Below are positions 27,906 to 36,972 of a stretch of 42,434 bases of DNA, piece by piece (position 1 is the stretch's first letter; each line of letters opens with the position of its first letter). This DNA is from Caldilineales bacterium (lineage in GTDB: Bacteria > Chloroflexota > Anaerolineae > J102). The position numbers and the translations under genes were made by a program. The notes under the pieces are model-generated. The model was not told the DNA's origin and did not search any database. It was given only the letters and a program-made list of their open reading frames with translations. The DNA lies in NCBI GenBank assembly GCA_019695115.1, contig JAIBAP010000052.1:1-42434 (forward strand), read 5' to 3'.

Positions 27906-28976
27906 TCAGGGTTCCATCGCTTTGGCAACAGCGGCGGCGCGGGTGCTGACGCCCAGCTTGACAAAGACAGCCTTCAGGTGCCGCTTGACCGTGTTGGGCG
28001 AAATGACCAGCCGCTCGGCGATTTCCTTGTTGGTCAGTCCCAATACCAGCAGGTTCAGCACCTCGCGCTCGCGCTCGGTCAGGAAAGCGAGGGCAGTGGT
28101 TTTGCCGGTGGCGGCAGCCAGAGCCTCGGACACGGCCTGGGCAAAGGCTCGGCGGTCGAAACCGCGCTTTTCCAGGAAGGCGAAGGCCCCGAACTCGTCC
28201 AGCGCCCGCTGCGCTTCGCTGGCGCCAGCGACGCCGCTGACGACAATGGCCGGCAGGCCGGCCTCGCGCCCGGCTGCCAGCAGGCGGAAGCCATCCACAT
28301 TGCCTGTGGGCGTCAGCGAGCTGGCCAGCGATAAGTCCACCACCGCCAGATCGAAACGCCGCCGGCGCATCTGGCCCAGGGCCTCGCCATAGCTGCTGCA
28401 AAGCTGCACCTGGTGGCCGGCATCCAGCAGAAGTTCGTGCAACAGGCTGCGCCAACCGGCGTCGTCCTCCACCACCAACACCTGGGCCTCGCCGCCCGCA
28501 GCCTCGCTCGCTCCGTCGATGGCAGGCGAGATTGCCGCCGCTGGCAGAACAGCCGGGGGCGCCGTCGCCGGCGGGAGGGCCGTCGCCGACGGGAGGGCCA
28601 GGATTTCCTCCAGCACGCGTCGAAACTCGGCCCGTCGGAAACGCTCCTTGCGCAGGCAGGTGTGCGCCCCAAAATCACGCAATACGCTCACCGCCAATTC
28701 GACGGTGGCAAAACCAGAGAGAAGGACGGGCGTGCAGGTCGGGTCGCTGCGGCGCAGGGCATCCAGCACGCGCAGACCGTCTTCGTTGCGATGGTCGCTG
28801 CCCGAAAGCGAGAGGTCCACCACTGCCAGCCGATGCGGGGCCGCGCGCAAGAGCGCGACGGCGGCTTCGTAGCTGCCGGCCACATCCACGATCAGCTCGG
28901 CGTCGGTCAGCAATTCGGTCAGGATCTGCTGCCAACTGGGGTCATCTTCGACGACGAGGGCGCGGGAGGGGGTCAT
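27906..28976 (-). CDS. Double-receiver LuxR-type response regulator
   Basis: The protein has 356 residues with two receiver domains in tandem. REC1 has acidic pair Asp11/Asp12, phospho-acceptor Asp54 (VVDLSLSG) and Lys110. REC2 has Asp171/Asp172, Asp214 (VVDLSLAS) and Lys270. An Ala/Pro-rich linker joins them (about 128-162). The C-terminus is a LuxR/FixJ HTH (LTEREREVLNLLVLGLTNKEIAERLVISPNTVKRHL). It would bind DNA after phosphorylation, probably by the kinase encoded 123 bases upstream. ATG 28976 is chosen because VVEDD follows directly; longer in-frame starts lie in repeats. Confidence 0.93.
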   Translation of the reverse strand: MTPSRALVVEDDPSWQQILTELLTDAELIVDVAGSYEAAVALLRAAPHRLAVVDLSLSGSDHRNEDGLRVLDALRRSDPTCTPVLLSGFATVELAVSVLRDFGAHTCLRKERFRRAEFRRVLEEILALPSATALPPATAPPAVLPAAAISPAIDGASEAAGGEAQVLVVEDDAGWRSLLHELLLDAGHQVQLCSSYGEALGQMRRRRFDLAVVDLSLASSLTPTGNVDGFRLLAAGREAGLPAIVVSGVAGASEAQRALDEFGAFAFLEKRGFDRRAFAQAVSEALAAATGKTTALAFLTEREREVLNLLVLGLTNKEIAERLVISPNTVKRHLKAVFVKLGVSTRAAAVAKAMEP

Positions 28977-29099: not shown

Positions 29100-31451
29100 T
29101 CAGGCGGGATCAGGGTGAGGGGGCTGGATGGGCAGGCGGAGGGTGAAGGTGGCGCCCCGGCGGCCGTCGCTTTCCACCATCACGCCGCCGCCAAAACGGG
29201 CCATCAACGTGCGCACCCACCAGAGGCCAAACCCAAACTGGCCGTTGGCGCGTTTGGCGCCCGAATAGTTGAACTCGAAGATCTTGTCGTGCAGCTCGGG
29301 CGGGATGCCCGGCCCCGTATCGCTGACCGTCACCTCTACCCATCCGCCCCGCACGCCGCCCTGGATGCGGACCTCGCCCGCTGTCGCGCCGGCGTTTTGC
29401 ATGGCGGCGATGGCATTTTCGAGCAAGTTGACGAAAACGAGCGAGAGCCGCTGCTGGCCGGCAATGACGGTGGGCAGGGCGTCGAGATCGCGGACGTGAA
29501 CGCCAAGCCAGCCGGGGATGGCGACGCTGCTGATCGCCTGGGCCACGGCCGCGCCGATATCGACCGGGGCCGGGCGGATGGGCCGCAGATAAAAAAGGCT
29601 GCTGCTCAGGGCCTCCATCGCCTCGGCGGCGCTGCGCTCGATCTCGGCCAGGTTGGCGGCCAGATAGGGGTCGGCGCTCAGGCTGGCCTGGCACTTATCC
29701 TGGATGCCCTCTACCCGCACCGGGATGACGCCGATCTTGTTGTTCAGACGGTGCAAGAGGTTGGCGGCGATGTCGCCCACGGCGGCAAAGGTCTCGGCGG
29801 CGGCCCGCTGCTCGCGCTCGCGGCGCAGCGCCTCTTGATGGGCGGCGTTGCGCACGGCCAGGGCGGCGTGATGAGCCAGAAAAGTGAGCACCTTCTTGTC
29901 CCAATCCGAGACAAGGAACTGACCGGGGTTGGCGGCAGTGTTGTAGACGCTCAGCGCCCCCACGGCCTCGTTGCCCGAACCGGCCAGCAGTGGAGCGACC
30001 AGCGCCTGAGTCCAGCCCTGCTGCCGGGCCAGATCATGCCACTGGAAACGGGGGTCATCGCGCACATCGTCGGCGACGACGATGCCACGCTGGAGCACAG
30101 CCTGCCCGGTCAGGCTTCCGTGCAGGGCCACCCGCTCGCCATGGACATGGCCGGCGTTGGCGCTTTGCAGAACCAGATGCTCCTCGTCCAGCGTCCACAG
30201 CGCGCCCACCGGCGCCCCTAACAACTGGCACGCCAATTCGACCAGGCGATCCAACACCTGCTGCAAGGGTTGAGTGAGTAATCGTTCGGCGATCTCCTGC
30301 AGGGCATCTAGCAGGCGAACCTCCTGGATGGCGATCACGGCCTGGGTGGCCAACGATTGCAGCAAAAGGCTGTCATCCTCGCTAAATGCGCCCACCAGCG
30401 GACTTTCCAGGTTGATCACCCCCTCCAGGCGGCCGCTGGCCCCGATCAACGGCACCGCCAGTTCCGAGCGCATCTCGCGCTCGTGGTCGAGCGGATAGTA
30501 GATGCGCGCCCAAGGTTCCGAGCGGACGTCGGTGATGCACAAGGGGGCGCGGGTCTTGGCCACCCAGCCGGTGATGCTGGTGGCGTTCAACGGCAGCGCC
30601 TCGATGGCCGGGCGGCCCAGGTCATCCCCGGCCAGCGCCCTCGTCAGCAATCGGCTCCCCGACTCGTCCACCAGCCGCAAGATGCCGTAACGGGCGTTGG
30701 TGACTTCCAGCGCCATCTGCAGGATCGATTCGAGCGTGTCCTGCAACTGCGAGCGCGACGAAATCAGCAAATCGGCGCGGCGCATTCGCGCCAGTTCATC
30801 TTCTTTGCGTTCCAGGTCGCGTTGGATGCGCTGTGCGTAGTCGGCCGTGCGCGCCAACTGCTGCTCACGATGGATGGCCAGAGCCGCCAGATTGACCAGG
30901 TTATCCAGCAGCAACAGTTCCCACTCGCTGAAACGATGGTCTTCGTGCCGATAGACGTACAGCGCGCCCACCGGCTGCCCGGCCACGATCAAGGGATAGC
31001 AGGCGCCCACCCTGGCCCCGGCTGCCGTCATGGCCTCGTGCATTCCCACTTCCGGCGCCTCATACGAGAGCACCCGCTGCTGCTGCCGCAAGGCCTGGGC
31101 GCCAAGCCCGCCCGGACGGGGGGCATCGTCTCCCTCCAGCCCTGTCGCCCGGCCGGCGGCCACGCGCGAGGCGGGGTCGAAGCCCGCACCATCGGCATCA
31201 CAGGTGTAGATCACCGCCGTCACGGCGCCGGCGCCCTCCTCACCCCGCGCCATCACCGCCACCGCGCCTTCGGCGATCAGCCGCAGCGTCTCGGACAGAC
31301 CGATGCTCTGGCCCGAAGGCACGCTGTTGATGCCAGCCGCGACCGCATTGAGCGTTGCCAACGCCACAAGCCATTGGCCCTCGCCGAGCGCGGCAGCAGC
31401 GACCGGCTGGCGACGGCTATCGGGACTTGCTGAAAGCAAAGAGTCTGGCAT
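29100..31451 (-). CDS. GAF-domain sensor histidine kinase
   Basis: The protein has 783 residues from ATG 31451 (nine more from 31478). Three GAF-like sensory domains are visible: one with GARVGACYPLIVAGQPVGALYVYRH, one with ALPLNATSITGWVAKTRAPL and SELAVPLIGASGRLEGVINLES, and one with LHGSLTGQAVLQRG and ALVAPLLAGSGNEAVGALSVYN. The kinase core follows with an atypical H-box, NLLHRLNNKIGV (His567). The N-box is LVFVNLLENAIAAM, the G1 box VSDTGPGIPPE, and the G2 box FGLWWVRTLM. No membrane segment is seen, so it is a cytoplasmic sensor, perhaps of a small ligand or redox state. It is divergent from glnE and probably feeds the double-receiver regulator downstream. Confidence 0.92.
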   Translation of the reverse strand: MPDSLLSASPDSRRQPVAAAALGEGQWLVALATLNAVAAGINSVPSGQSIGLSETLRLIAEGAVAVMARGEEGAGAVTAVIYTCDADGAGFDPASRVAAGRATGLEGDDAPRPGGLGAQALRQQQRVLSYEAPEVGMHEAMTAAGARVGACYPLIVAGQPVGALYVYRHEDHRFSEWELLLLDNLVNLAALAIHREQQLARTADYAQRIQRDLERKEDELARMRRADLLISSRSQLQDTLESILQMALEVTNARYGILRLVDESGSRLLTRALAGDDLGRPAIEALPLNATSITGWVAKTRAPLCITDVRSEPWARIYYPLDHEREMRSELAVPLIGASGRLEGVINLESPLVGAFSEDDSLLLQSLATQAVIAIQEVRLLDALQEIAERLLTQPLQQVLDRLVELACQLLGAPVGALWTLDEEHLVLQSANAGHVHGERVALHGSLTGQAVLQRGIVVADDVRDDPRFQWHDLARQQGWTQALVAPLLAGSGNEAVGALSVYNTAANPGQFLVSDWDKKVLTFLAHHAALAVRNAAHQEALRREREQRAAAETFAAVGDIAANLLHRLNNKIGVIPVRVEGIQDKCQASLSADPYLAANLAEIERSAAEAMEALSSSLFYLRPIRPAPVDIGAAVAQAISSVAIPGWLGVHVRDLDALPTVIAGQQRLSLVFVNLLENAIAAMQNAGATAGEVRIQGGVRGGWVEVTVSDTGPGIPPELHDKIFEFNYSGAKRANGQFGFGLWWVRTLMARFGGGVMVESDGRRGATFTLRLPIQPPHPDPA

Positions 31452-31525
31452 AGAGTTCGGGTCATGCGAGCGGCGCATCGGTGCGCATTATAGCGCCCGC
31501 CGCTGGCTTGCGCACCCCCTCAGAC

Positions 31526-31570
31526 ATGACCCATTTGGGTACTCTTTCGCCCCTCCGTAGCGCCTACACT
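31526..31570 (+). promoter_or_regulatory. Shared ATGACCCATTTGGGTA box and -10 before glnE
   Basis: ATGACCCATTTGGGTA (31526-31541) contains the inverted repeat ACCCA-N2-TGGGT. TACACT (31565-31570) can serve as -10, 24 bases after the palindrome. The identical 16-mer precedes glnA at 35329. The site centre is about 42 bases before the predicted transcription start, where activators bind. Confidence 0.6.
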
Positions 31571-31576
31571 ATCGTT

Positions 31577-34500
31577 GTGACCCTCCACCCCCTTCTCCTC
31601 CCCGATCTGCTCGCTGACGAGGCCGAAGCGTTGTTGGCGCCGGTCGGATTCGGCGATGCCGGCGCCGCCTGGCAGCGATTGCGCCGGCTGGCGCCCGACG
31701 ACGCCTCGCTCCCCCTGCTTTCGGCCTGCCTCCCCCACCTGCTGGCTGCGCTCGCCGAAGCCGCCCACCCCGACCAGGCCCTCGTCAACTTCGAGCGGCT
31801 GTTGCAAAGCGCGCCCCCAGCCGAGCGCGCCGGCCCGGACGAATCGCTCCTGGCGCATCTGGCCCTGAACCCGCGCGCCATCGAGATGCTGGCCACCCTG
31901 TTCGCCGGCAGCCAGTTCCTGACCGAGATCCTCCTGCGCCAACCCGATGCCGCCCTGCGCCTGTTCCACAGCCAGGGCGAGGGCGAGCTTGGCCGCCGCA
32001 AGACCATCGCCCAGTTTCGGGCCGAGGCCGCCAGCCTGCTGGCCGAGAGCGAGGATTGGCTGTCCCAACTCGACGCCCTGCGCCGCTACCAACGCTGGCA
32101 GTTGCTCCGCATCGGCGCCTGCGATTTCTTCGGGCTGATGGACCTCTCCGGCATCACCGCCCAACTCTCGCGGCTGGCCGATGCCCTGGTGCAGACCTGT
32201 CTCGACCTGGCCGCAGGGCAGACCGGGGGCGGGGCCGATGATTTCACCGTCCTGGCCATGGGCAAACTGGGCGGGGGCGAGGTGAACTACAGCTCGGACA
32301 TCGACCTGCTCTTCCTGGCCAGCGCCAACGCCCTCGACCATGTGCGACTGGGCCAGCGGCTGATCGACGCCCTCACCCGCAACACCGGCGAAGGCTTCCT
32401 CTACCGGGTGGACATGAGGCTGCGCCCCTGGGGGCGGGATGGCGCCCTGGTGACGGCGGTGGACGGGCATCTGGACTATCTGCGCCGCCATGCCCGGCTG
32501 TGGGAAAAGCAGGCCCTGCTCAAGGCCCGCCCGATCGCCGGCGCCATCCAGGTCGGCCTCGATTTCCTGGAACAGGCGCAGCCGATCATCTTCGACCTGG
32601 AGCCGGAGCGGGTGCGCGAGGATGTGCGGGCGATGAAAGAGCGCACCGAATCCTATCTGCGCCAGCACGGCCGCAGCTGGGGCGAGGTGAAGCTGGGCGA
32701 GGGTTCGATCCGCGACGCCGAATTCGTGGTGCAGTATCTGCAACTCAGCCACGGCGGCCGCGACCCCTATGTGCGCAGCGGGCGCACGCTGGATGCCCTC
32801 TCGCGGCTGGTGGGGGCCGGTGTGATCAGGCCGGACGCTCACCGCACCCTGGGCGCGGGCTATGTCTTCTTGCGCACGGTCGAACACCACCTGCAATTGA
32901 TGCACTACCGCCAGACCTCCACCCTGCCCGCCGACCCCGCCGAACTGGAGGCCCTGGCCCGTCGCCTGGGCTTCAGCGGCGCTGAGGCCGGAGAACGCTT
33001 TCTCGAACGCTACCAACAACACCGCGACGCCGTCCGCGCCGTCTATCTGCACTATCTCGGAGCCGACCCCATGGCCACGAACCCCACGCCCGCCGCCAAT
33101 GGCCCCGCCCTGCCGCCCGCCGCCGGCGGCGGGGTCGCCCTCCGGCGCCATATCGAACGCATGGACGCCTCGTATGCCGCCGTCTTCAGCCCGGACGAAA
33201 TCCACCAGCACGCCATCCTGGCCGGTCAGGTGGACGAGGCCAACCCCGTTCAGGTGGATGTCAGCCCGCTGGATGGCGCTCACTGGCGGGTGACGATCGT
33301 CGGCTACGACTACCTGGGCGAGCTGAGTCTGATCTGCGGCTTGTTGTTCGTGCATGGCCTGGACATCGCCAGCGGGCACATCTTCACCTACGAGCCGCTG
33401 CCCGCCGAGACGCCGGAGCCGGCCGGCCGCTCGGCGCTCCCCTCTCTGCGCCAGCGCCCGGCCGCCGATGCCCGCCAGAAGATCGTCGATGTCTTCACCG
33501 TCCGCCCGGTCGAAGGCGCCCTGGCGCCCGACCTGTGGCAACGCTACGCCGAGGAATTGACCGATCTGGTGCGCAAGTTGCACTTCCGGCGGCGCGATGA
33601 GGTGCAGGGGGCGCTGACGCACCGCGTGGCCGATGTGTTGCAACAGCGCGAGGGCGGCTCGCCCACGGTCTATCCGGTGGACATCACCATCGACAACGAC
33701 AGCTCGCCCCGCTACACCCTGCTGGAGATCGCCGGCCCCGACACGCCCGGCTTTCTCTACGAACTGACCAATGCCCTGGCCCTCAACGGCGTCTACATCG
33801 CCCGCGTCGAGGTCAACTCGGTGGGCAGTCGGGTGCAGGACACCCTGTTCGTGGTCGATGCCAACGGCCAGAAGATGACATCCAGCATTCGCCAGCGCGA
33901 GTTGCGGGCCGCCATGGCCTTGGTCAAACACTTCACCCACCTGCTGCCGTTGTCGCCCAATCCCGAGCGAGCGCTTCTGCATTTCCGCAACTTCCTGTCC
34001 CAACTTTTCGAGCGACCCAACTGGCCGGATGAGCTGGTTTCGGTCGAACGACCGGAGGTGCTGAATGCCCTCGCCCGGCTGCTGGGGGTCAGCGATTTCC
34101 TCTGGAACGACTTCCTGCGCATGCAATACGCCAACCTGTTCCCGGTAGTCAGCAACGTGGGCGGGCTGGAGGAGCCGCACTCGCAAGAGCTACTGGCGGC
34201 GCGCCTGCGGGACGAAGTGGCCGCCGCACCCGACGCCGAGACGCGCTGGCAGGTGATCAACGCCTTCAAGGACCGCGAGATGTTTCGCATCGACATGCGC
34301 CACATCCTCGGCCACACGGTCAAGTTCGGCACCTTCGCCCGCGAGCTGACGGCGCTGGCCGAGGCAGTGGTGGGGGCAGCCTACACCCTGTGCGAGATCG
34401 GGCTGGTGGGGCAGTATGGTCTGCCCCGGCTGGAAGACGGCAGCCCTTGCCCGATCAGCGTCGTCGCCCTGGGCAAGGCGGGCGGCCATGAGCTCGGCTT

Positions 34501-35314
34501 TGCCTCCGACATCGAACTGATGTTCATCTACGCCGGGGCGGGGAGGACGGGCGGGGCCAACAGCATCACCACGTCTGAGTTCTACGAGAAGCTGGTGCAG
34601 GAGTTCGTGCGCGGCATCCGCGCCAAACACGAAGGCATCTTCGAGATCGACCTGCAATTGCGGCCCTATGGCAAGGCCGGCAGCATGGCCGTCTCGTTGG
34701 ATGCCTTCCGGCGCTATTTCGGGCCGGGCGGCCCGGCCTGGGCCTACGAGCGCCAGGCCCTGGTCAAACTGCGGCCCATCGCCGGCGACGCCGACCTCGG
34801 CGGGCGGATCGTGGCCTTGCGCGATGAATTCGTCTACACTGGCGTGGGTTTCGACGTGGCGGCGATGCAGGCGATGCGCGAGCGGCAGTTGCGGCATCTG
34901 GTCACGGCCGGGGCCATCAACGCCAAGTTCAGCCCCGGCTGTCTGGTGGATATCGAGTATCTGGTGCAGGCCCTGCAGATCACACACGGCCGGCAGCATC
35001 CCGCTCTGCGGCTGCCCAACACGCGCGAGGCCATGACCGCCCTGCGCGACCTCGGCTTCCTCCCGCCCGATGATTTCAGTCGCTTGCGCGCGGCCCATCT
35101 CTTCTTCCGCAACCTGATCAACGCCCTGCGCATGGTGCGCGGCCACGCCAAAGACCTGACCGTACCGCCCGCCGGCAGCGACGAATTCGCTTTTCTGGCC
35201 CGTCGCCTGGGCGAGAGCGAGCAAAAACTCGGCGAGGACATCGGCCGCCATGCCGCCGCCGTCCAGCAGCTCAGCAACCGGCTGCTGGATGCGCTGGCGG
35301 GCGACGACGGCTGA
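31577..35314 (+). CDS. glnE: GlnE-type adenylyltransferase with internal GlnD-like ACT domains
   Basis: The protein has 1245 residues from GTG 31577; common GlnE is about 950. There are two nucleotidyltransferase halves. The first has MGKLGGGEVNYSSDID (from residue 228, Asp241/Asp243), and the second has LGKAGGHELGFASDIE (Asp978/Glu980). Each is followed by the helical LRPWGRDG/LRPYGKAG, EKQALLKARPI/ERQALVKLRPI and DAEFVVQYLQL/DIEYLVQALQI segments of the family. Between them are two ACT-like stretches: HWRVTIVGYDYLGELSL (about 569-612) and ITIDNDSSPRYTLLEIAG...GPDTPGFLYELTNALAL (about 703-770). The second closely matches the ACT consensus of GlnD uridylyltransferase. The protein probably adenylylates and deadenylylates glutamine synthetase, with glutamine sensed by its own ACT pair. 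The second half has DxE instead of DxD. The start choice assumes the promoter at 31565, which would give a nearly leaderless mRNA; the frame is open back to 31481. glnA follows. Confidence 0.87.
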   Translation: MTLHPLLLPDLLADEAEALLAPVGFGDAGAAWQRLRRLAPDDASLPLLSACLPHLLAALAEAAHPDQALVNFERLLQSAPPAERAGPDESLLAHLALNPRAIEMLATLFAGSQFLTEILLRQPDAALRLFHSQGEGELGRRKTIAQFRAEAASLLAESEDWLSQLDALRRYQRWQLLRIGACDFFGLMDLSGITAQLSRLADALVQTCLDLAAGQTGGGADDFTVLAMGKLGGGEVNYSSDIDLLFLASANALDHVRLGQRLIDALTRNTGEGFLYRVDMRLRPWGRDGALVTAVDGHLDYLRRHARLWEKQALLKARPIAGAIQVGLDFLEQAQPIIFDLEPERVREDVRAMKERTESYLRQHGRSWGEVKLGEGSIRDAEFVVQYLQLSHGGRDPYVRSGRTLDALSRLVGAGVIRPDAHRTLGAGYVFLRTVEHHLQLMHYRQTSTLPADPAELEALARRLGFSGAEAGERFLERYQQHRDAVRAVYLHYLGADPMATNPTPAANGPALPPAAGGGVALRRHIERMDASYAAVFSPDEIHQHAILAGQVDEANPVQVDVSPLDGAHWRVTIVGYDYLGELSLICGLLFVHGLDIASGHIFTYEPLPAETPEPAGRSALPSLRQRPAADARQKIVDVFTVRPVEGALAPDLWQRYAEELTDLVRKLHFRRRDEVQGALTHRVADVLQQREGGSPTVYPVDITIDNDSSPRYTLLEIAGPDTPGFLYELTNALALNGVYIARVEVNSVGSRVQDTLFVVDANGQKMTSSIRQRELRAAMALVKHFTHLLPLSPNPERALLHFRNFLSQLFERPNWPDELVSVERPEVLNALARLLGVSDFLWNDFLRMQYANLFPVVSNVGGLEEPHSQELLAARLRDEVAAAPDAETRWQVINAFKDREMFRIDMRHILGHTVKFGTFARELTALAEAVVGAAYTLCEIGLVGQYGLPRLEDGSPCPISVVALGKAGGHELGFASDIELMFIYAGAGRTGGANSITTSEFYEKLVQEFVRGIRAKHEGIFEIDLQLRPYGKAGSMAVSLDAFRRYFGPGGPAWAYERQALVKLRPIAGDADLGGRIVALRDEFVYTGVGFDVAAMQAMRERQLRHLVTAGAINAKFSPGCLVDIEYLVQALQITHGRQHPALRLPNTREAMTALRDLGFLPPDDFSRLRAAHLFFRNLINALRMVRGHAKDLTVPPAGSDEFAFLARRLGESEQKLGEDIGRHAAAVQQLSNRLLDALAGDDG

Positions 35315-35328
35315 CGCGGCCCCCAAAT

Positions 35329-35375
35329 ATGACCCATTTGGGTAATGGCAGGCGCCTGGCCCGCCCGCCTATACT
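35329..35375 (+). promoter_or_regulatory. Shared ATGACCCATTTGGGTA box and -10 before glnA
   Basis: The 16-base sequence (35329-35344) is identical to the one before glnE. TATACT (35370-35375) follows 26 bases after the palindrome. The element starts 15 bases after the glnE stop codon, so glnA has its own promoter. Confidence 0.65.
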
Positions 35376-35556: not shown

Positions 35557-36972
35557 ATGTCCAAATCACCTGCTGATGTCGTCAAAATGGCCAAAGACGT
35601 AAAAATGGTCGACTATCGCTTCGTCGATCTGCCCGGCACCTGGCAACACTTCACCGTACCGGCGCGCGAGCTGAGCGAAGAAACCTTCCAGGATGGCGTC
35701 GGCTTCGACGGCTCATCGATCCGCGGCTTCCAGGAGATCCACGAATCGGACATGCTCCTGATGCCCGACCCCAGCAGCGCCTTCATCGACCCCATCTTCG
35801 AGATCCCCACCCTGGTGCTGATCTGCGATGTCTACGACCCGGTCACACTCCAGCCCTACTCGCGCGACCCGCGCTATGTGGCCCGCAAAGCCGAAGCCTA
35901 TCTGAAGCAGACCGGGCTGGCCGACACCAGCTATTGGGGGCCGGAAGCCGAATTCTTCATCTTCGACGATGTGCGCTATGGCTCTGACACCAATTCTGCC
36001 TTCTACCGCGTCGATAGCTCCGAGGCCTGGTGGAACAGCGGTAGGGACAGCGGCCGCAACCTGGGCGGACAGATCCCGGCCAAGCGCGGCTATTTCCCCG
36101 TCCCGCCCGCCGACCAGTTCCAGGACATCCGCAGCAAAATGGTGCTTTCACTCGAAGCATCGGGGGTCGAGATCGAAGTCCATCACCACGAAGTCGCCAC
36201 CGCCGGCCAGGCTGAGATCGACATGCGCTTCGACAGCATGGTGAGCATGGCCGATAAGGTCATGAAATACAAATACGTGATCAAGAACGTGGCCCGACAG
36301 AACGGCCTCACCGTCACCTTCATGCCCAAGCCGCTCTTTGGCGACAACGGCAGCGGTATGCACGTGCATCAGAGCCTGTGGAAGGGCAGCTCCAACATCT
36401 TTTTCGATGCCTCTGGCTACGCCGGCCTCTCGGACACGGCCAAATACTACATCGGCGGTCTGCTGAAGCACGCCTCCGCCCTGCTGGCCCTGGCCGCCCC
36501 CACCACCAACTCCTACCGCCGTCTGGTGCCCGGCTACGAAGCCCCGGTCAACCTGGCCTACTCGCAGCGCAACCGCTCAGCCATCTGCCGCATCCCCATC
36601 TACTCGAAAAGCCCCAAGGCCAAGCGCATCGAGTTCCGTGCTCCCGACCCCTCCAGCAACCCCTACCTCTGCTTCCCGGCCCTGCTGATGGCTGGTCTCG
36701 ATGGCATCCAGAACCGTATCGACCCCGGCGAACCGATGGACAAGGACCTGTACGAGTTGCCGCCGGACGAATTGAAGCTGATCAAGCAGGTGCCTGGCTC
36801 GCTGACCGATGTGTTGGATGCGCTGGAAGCCGACCACGACTTCCTCCTACGTGGCGATGTCTTCACCCCCGACCTGATCAAGGCCTACATCGCCTACAAG
36901 CGCCAGGTCGAGGTCGATCCCGTGCGTATGCGCCCGCATCCGTATGAGTTCATGCTGTATTACGATATCTGA
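35557..36972 (+). CDS. glnA: Glutamine synthetase type I
   Basis: The protein has 471 residues, the standard length of dodecameric GSI, which makes glutamine from glutamate, ammonia and ATP. Family motifs include [46 protein letters not shown], the [10 protein letters not shown] and [20 protein letters not shown] segments, and [14 protein letters not shown]. The C-terminal adenylylation loop is intact: [10 protein letters not shown] with Tyr399, matching the NLYDLP site of enteric GSI, so control by the adenylyltransferase encoded upstream is plausible. AAGGAG lies 10 bases before the ATG. A strong terminator follows at 36999. The shared upstream box suggests co-regulation with glnE. Confidence 0.97.

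Follow-up and report, generated by a model that had tools for sequence, protein, structure and literature searches.

A palindromic site before ammonia-assimilation genes of Anaerolineae and an adjoining FixJ/NarL-type two-component system as its proposed regulator

NtrC is a sigma54 enhancer-binding AAA+ protein that has the site TGCACC-N5-GGTGCA. NtcA belongs to the CRP family and has the site GTA-N8-TAC, centred at -41.5, while GlnR of actinobacteria and GlnR/TnrA of Bacillus are of the OmpR or MerR type and have different sites. For regulators of the NarL/FixJ type, the half-site used for comparison is TACYYMT. Escherichia coli NarL activates the ogt promoter from a site centred at -44.5 (PMC7419079).

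The window analysed here, the whole 42,434-nucleotide stretch of DNA from a Caldilineales bacterium, contains two copies of a palindrome, one located upstream of glnE and one upstream of glnA. The known sites of NtrC, NtcA and GlnR/TnrA were considered and rejected, as their geometry or promoter type did not fit, which agrees with an earlier examination made without database searches (the sequence-only reading) that had found the palindrome to be unlike all three. We consider it probable that the 18 bp palindrome is the operator of an adjoining two-component system of the FixJ/NarL type that activates ammonia-assimilation genes at sigma70-type promoters. At the level of sequence, this rests on the site itself, its exclusive placement in the genome, the near-constant spacing between it and the -10 box, and the linkage of the site to a kinase-regulator pair. 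The relevant features of the window are as follows.

27906–28976, minus strand: response regulator REC-REC-GerE (FixJ/NarL type), the proposed site-binding protein (Pfam, AlphaFold2, Foldseek)
29100–31478, minus strand: sensor histidine kinase with three GAF stretches, the H-box LLHRLNN (H576) and HATPase_c
31487–31492, minus strand: candidate -10 box of the kinase-regulator genes, TATAAT, on the opposite side of site 1 at a distance of 33 bp (22+11)
31526–31543, plus strand: putative regulator site 1, ATGACCCATTTGGGTACT, in the divergent intergenic region that separates glnE from the kinase-regulator genes (pattern match, relatives)
31565–31570, plus strand: -10 box of glnE, TACACT, 21 bp 3′ of site 1 (18-mer)
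31577–35314, plus strand: glnE, a member of the glutamine synthetase adenylyltransferase family in whose centre is a GlnD-like ACT region (Pfam; NCBIfam below equivalog cut-offs)
35329–35346, plus strand: putative regulator site 2, ATGACCCATTTGGGTAAT, 5′ of glnA (pattern match)
35370–35375, plus strand: -10 box of glnA, TATACT, 23 bp 3′ of site 2 (18-mer)
35557–36972, plus strand: glnA, type I glutamine synthetase (TIGR00653, 679 bits, above the cut-off; Pfam)

The 16-mer ATGACCCATTTGGGTA was found exactly at 31526–31541 and 35329–35344 on the plus strand, and there was no third match in the window, even when 3 mismatches were allowed (0.15 expected). The sequence-only reading had reported these identical 16-mers, each followed by a TAYACT -10 box, and had taken the operator to be 16 bases long. 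The copies, their identity and the -10 boxes are as it described, but the palindrome itself is longer, at about 18 bp (ATGAYCCA-NN-TGGRTMMT), and has the 7-2-7 inverted-repeat shape of sites bound by NarL/FixJ-type response regulators. The GTG start of glnE at 31577 suggests, by inference, a near-leaderless mRNA, and it is possible, again by inference, that the kinase-regulator genes are autoregulated through site 1. In the GlnE protein the two adenylyltransferase halves are separated by ACT domains, with Pfam ACT matches near residues 703–780 and NCBIfam uridylyltransferase matches at 525–781. A GlnE with such GlnD-like domains could sense glutamine without P-II.

When the 5.99 Mb genome was searched for ATGACCCATTTGGGTA with up to 2 mismatches, one additional copy was found (C125:2352), and the 18 bp pattern AKKAYCCANNTGGRTMMT with up to 1 mismatch was found in exactly three places, with none in the control. 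The third copy lies 5′ of a CPA2-like antiporter gene, which is followed on the same strand by amtB and the gene for P-II, and from the spacing these three genes are inferred to form one operon. All three genomic sites thus stand at nitrogen genes. The sequence-only reading had expected a genome-wide search to reveal copies at amtB, glnK and gltBD. The first two are accounted for by the antiporter-amtB-P-II run, while support for gltBD is confined to a single relative (G156), in which the site is 5′ of a gene for a GATase_2 protein, GATase_2 being the kind of domain found at the N-terminus of glutamate synthase. As the 18 bp pattern was drawn from this genome together with its relatives, its genomic specificity is partly by construction, and the independent check is therefore provided by the loci fetched using the regulator, described below.

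The distance from the site to the best -10 box was determined in 76 distinct glnA, amtB and antiporter promoters by searching 10–35 bp 3′ of the site, with ties broken towards 22. It was 22 bp in 60, 23 bp in 11, 21 bp in four and 28 bp in one, such that 75 of the 76 have a -10 box 21–23 bp after the site. These boxes are of the sigma70 type, though no dedicated sigma54 scan was made. In most promoters the site is followed by AGAC, creating a -35-like TAGACN with a 17 bp spacer. The centre of the site is about 43–45 bp upstream of the likely transcription start, a common position for activators. The near-fixed distance and poor -35 are in keeping with the activating position suggested in the sequence-only reading, and activation itself remains an inference. 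In the glnA promoters of three loci (L312, L336 and L344) a second GGGTA is found about 11 bp after the first, 3′ of the site (AGACGGGTA), and is perhaps a further half-site.

Sites were found 5′ of glnA in many relatives, 5′ of amtB in eight genomes and of amtB-P-II in another (G050), and 5′ of antiporter genes in G001 and G002 as well as in the genome studied here. In G021 and G061, one site is common to divergent glnE and glnA, and in two families (f8 and f31) a variant palindrome, AGTACCCA-NN-TGGGTACT, was present. Failure of the motif to be conserved before glnA or glnE in relatives, or a location mainly inside genes, would have refuted the operator; the motif is conserved and is not mainly intragenic. 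A clear site was absent at glnE in G001, G026, G033 and G034, and no recognised site was found in the loci examined for the regulator orthologues of families f11, f29 and f33, including a glnA of f11. Outside the class Anaerolineae, in the same phylum, matches to the site were at about chance level. In another class, similar palindromes precede a Rieske-protein gene, in tandem in one locus (L206, G417) and singly in another (L234, G500), and are probably unrelated. Within the set of loci, the site was also observed 5′ of a circularly permuted ATP-grasp gene (PF14403; L145:6225–7688, G160) and 5′ of antiporter or CitMHS-type transporter genes in five loci (L131, L133, L153, L326 and L339), in three of which (L153, L326 and L339) amtB follows. 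In G261, where a site lies close to an IclR gene, the layout differs and has its own -35 box, and the association was judged to be due to chance.

The inverted repeat of 7-2-7-like form suggested a binding protein of the NarL/LuxR type, and this geometry was proposed when the GAF kinase was known but before the domains of the adjoining regulator had been scanned. That regulator contains PF00072 in two stretches and a C-terminal PF00196, the composition that defines GerE-type response regulators. An AlphaFold2 model consists of REC, linker, REC and helix-turn-helix, but the predicted arrangement of these domains is uncertain because the mean pLDDT was 81.6 and the pTM 0.43. The best structural matches in Foldseek were StyR and FixJ. 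The NCBIfam equivalog cut-offs for FixJ (81.5 of 255 bits) and NarL (52 of 250) were not met, and Pfam scans detected no AAA+ sigma54-activator domain in the regulator. In an alignment of nine sequences the receiver residues D11, D54 and K110, and D171/D172, D214 and K270, are invariant, and their role in phosphorylation is inferred from position. H576 in the LLHRLNN motif of the kinase is also invariant. The nitrogen regulator that the sequence-only reading supposed to act at this site thus has a candidate in the REC-REC-GerE protein encoded, with its GAF kinase, beside glnE, though binding is inferred.

The kinase-regulator pair adjoins glnE in the window, in G001 and in family f16, glnA in seven families (f1, f3, f8, f15, f16, f31 and f50), and amtB-P-II in f31. 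Amongst 26 loci chosen by site or glnA and not by the regulator, the pair was the most widespread labelled gene group after glnA, and a kinase or regulator gene of the same type was present in 13 of the 21 that bear glnA, several of which end at contig ends. The other recurring groups of open reading frames were mostly unlabelled (not all were annotated) and two had no Pfam match; many of the unlabelled groups probably represent frames antisense to glnA and amtB. One group that appears to be real is a recurrent gene next to amtB, about 350 aa in length and without a Pfam match (L138:6197–7261 and L139:5035–6072).

The regulator was found in 43 of 150 genomes of the class, and raw co-occurrence of site and regulator over these genomes was weak (16 shared, about 9.5 expected), owing to chance sites. 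Only after this table looked weak was the comparison limited to sites at nitrogen genes, when 11 of the 14 genomes with such a site were found to have the regulator (Fisher p 7e-5). One of the 14 (G081, with its site 612 bp from glnA) was included by hand, and neither the linkage nor the co-occurrence counts were corrected for relatedness. The three exceptions were G014, where a fusion is found, G013, where the kinase gene is cut by a contig end, and G142, which is unexplained. A site without a regulator match was seen in G142, G156 and G160, all metagenome-type assemblies judging by contig number. In G014, a GAF sensor is fused in frame to a LuxR/GerE domain, with no kinase or receivers (L167:7942–9519), and the fusion gene lies just downstream of a glnA with a site. 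The junction falls between domains. The gene may be a naturally occurring one-component form of the system, although misassembly could also account for the fusion. In 42 regulator-site pairs, at least one TGAY half-site was present for 6 of 6 regulators in which ISxN precedes the recognition helix and for 2 of the other 36. This association emerged on inspection of the table without having been planned, and relatedness confounds it.

Scanning genome contigs with a profile of the regulator alone recovered 80 loci, with titles such as Chloroflexota, Anaerolineae, Caldilineales and Ardenticatenia, and one Herpetosiphon. The site matrix was built only from the earlier sites, and the loci counted were those not recognised as belonging to the earlier set. 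In these new loci a site scoring at least 13 was found at 34 of 37 glnA, 13 of 14 glnE and 4 of 10 amtB genes, and at 12 of 405 other genes, positives that were not individually explained. The glnE counts are not independent of those for glnA, as the divergent site is mostly shared. Over all 1.0 Mb, 52 of 57 sites scoring at least 15 were no more than 700 bp from the start of a gene in the profile set (glnA, glnE, amtB, P-II, antiporter, kinase and regulator). The remaining five included a G001 glnA site cut by the end of the locus, one site 5′ of a homocitrate-synthase-like gene and two 5′ of a CitMHS-type transporter gene that is followed by amtB.

In the mechanism proposed, the GAF kinase (29100–31478, minus strand) would read nitrogen status and phosphorylate the REC-REC-GerE regulator (27906–28976, minus strand), a dimer of which would occupy the 7-2-7-like inverted repeat centred about 43–45 bp upstream of the transcription start. 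There it would assist sigma70 RNA polymerase at promoters whose -10 box is good and whose -35 is poor (TAGACN in most relatives), and a shortage of nitrogen would increase transcription of glnA, glnE and the antiporter-amtB-P-II genes. Nitrogen status may be signalled through ligand binding by the GAF domains or through P-II. Binding of the regulator to the site, activation rather than repression, and nitrogen status as the signal are all inferred, as there are no binding or expression data. The G014 fusion of a GAF sensor to a DNA-binding domain without kinase or receivers suggests the idea that, in Anaerolineae, the nitrogen signal is a direct ligand of the GAF domains and that DNA binding could respond to it whether or not phosphorylation is involved; we regard this idea as tentative and rather doubtful.

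The occurrence of two identical 16-mers by chance can be virtually dismissed. In 3 of 100 shuffled versions of the window, at least two matches were obtained with 3 mismatches allowed, and a chance repeat is contradicted by the exclusive genome-wide placement and the conservation in relatives. It is more difficult to set aside a different binding protein, such as an NtcA-like member of the CRP/FNR family, with the kinase-regulator pair doing something else, for example only being co-transcribed with glnA. A palindrome before a -10 box that lacks a good -35 is also typical of that family, and the variant sites, GTA-N10-TAC, are not far from the GTA-N8-TAC of NtcA. However, for such a protein the half-sites are two bases too far apart and the -10 box is about two bases too distant, the latter being the ground on which a CRP-family reading of the palindrome was rejected. 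The prominence of the pair in the loci that contain glnA also counts against it (the genome was not scanned for a CRP-family nitrogen regulator), as do the recovery of the site in loci fetched by the regulator and the sensor-GerE fusion in G014, and we consider another binding protein unlikely.

A similarly low likelihood is given to the regulator binding the site but repressing glnA, glnE and amtB when nitrogen is in excess. The site directly adjoins the -35 position, so that polymerase could be obstructed by a protein bound there, and on the glnE side of G021 the site is found beside a TTGACA -35 box. Against this, the nearly invariant distance to the -10 box and the poor -35 of most promoters are as expected of an activator, and NarL activates ogt from -44.5 (PMC7419079). 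Activation by the adjoining FixJ/NarL-type system is the reading we retain.

In the literature searched, from which most subscription papers were missing, no nitrogen regulator or palindrome of this kind had been described in Chloroflexota and no account of the control of ammonia assimilation in Anaerolineae was found. Within those limits the site remains undescribed, as the sequence-only reading had supposed. A kinase-regulator pair linked to glnA, glnE or amtB/P-II recurs in many families of the Anaerolineae, which form a large class with mostly uncultured members. The elements identified here, namely the site, the arrangement of the promoter, the candidate regulator, the sensor and the set of genes, are open to testing in a relative that has been cultured, for example Leptolinea tardivitalis (L339).

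The proposed arrangement resembles NtrB-NtrC in placing glnA and amtB-glnK under two-component control by nitrogen status, with a kinase H-box of the H-x-x-N type, but differs from NtrC in having a GerE-domain regulator, a sigma70-type -10 box and no AAA+ domain that could be found. NtcA of cyanobacteria likewise has a palindrome in glnA and amt promoters, placed upstream of the -10 box at a constant spacing; however, it is a CRP-family protein that recognises GTA-N8-TAC, and the closest variants here have N10 spacing. GlnR of actinobacteria and GlnR/TnrA of Bacillus share the control of glnA and amtB, but are proteins of the OmpR or MerR type whose sites differ. With FixL-FixJ and NarX-NarL the system shares a GerE-type regulator, a 7-2-7-like inverted repeat (here the inferred target of the regulator) and an activator position (-44.5 for NarL; PMC7419079). 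Those systems target nitrogen fixation or nitrate respiration, not core ammonia assimilation, and the regulator here differs from FixJ and NarL in its two receiver domains and in a half-site of TGAYCCA/GTACCCA instead of TACYYMT. A regulator of the FixJ/NarL type, with its binding inferred, would thus be placed in the role that NtrC, GlnR or NtcA hold elsewhere.
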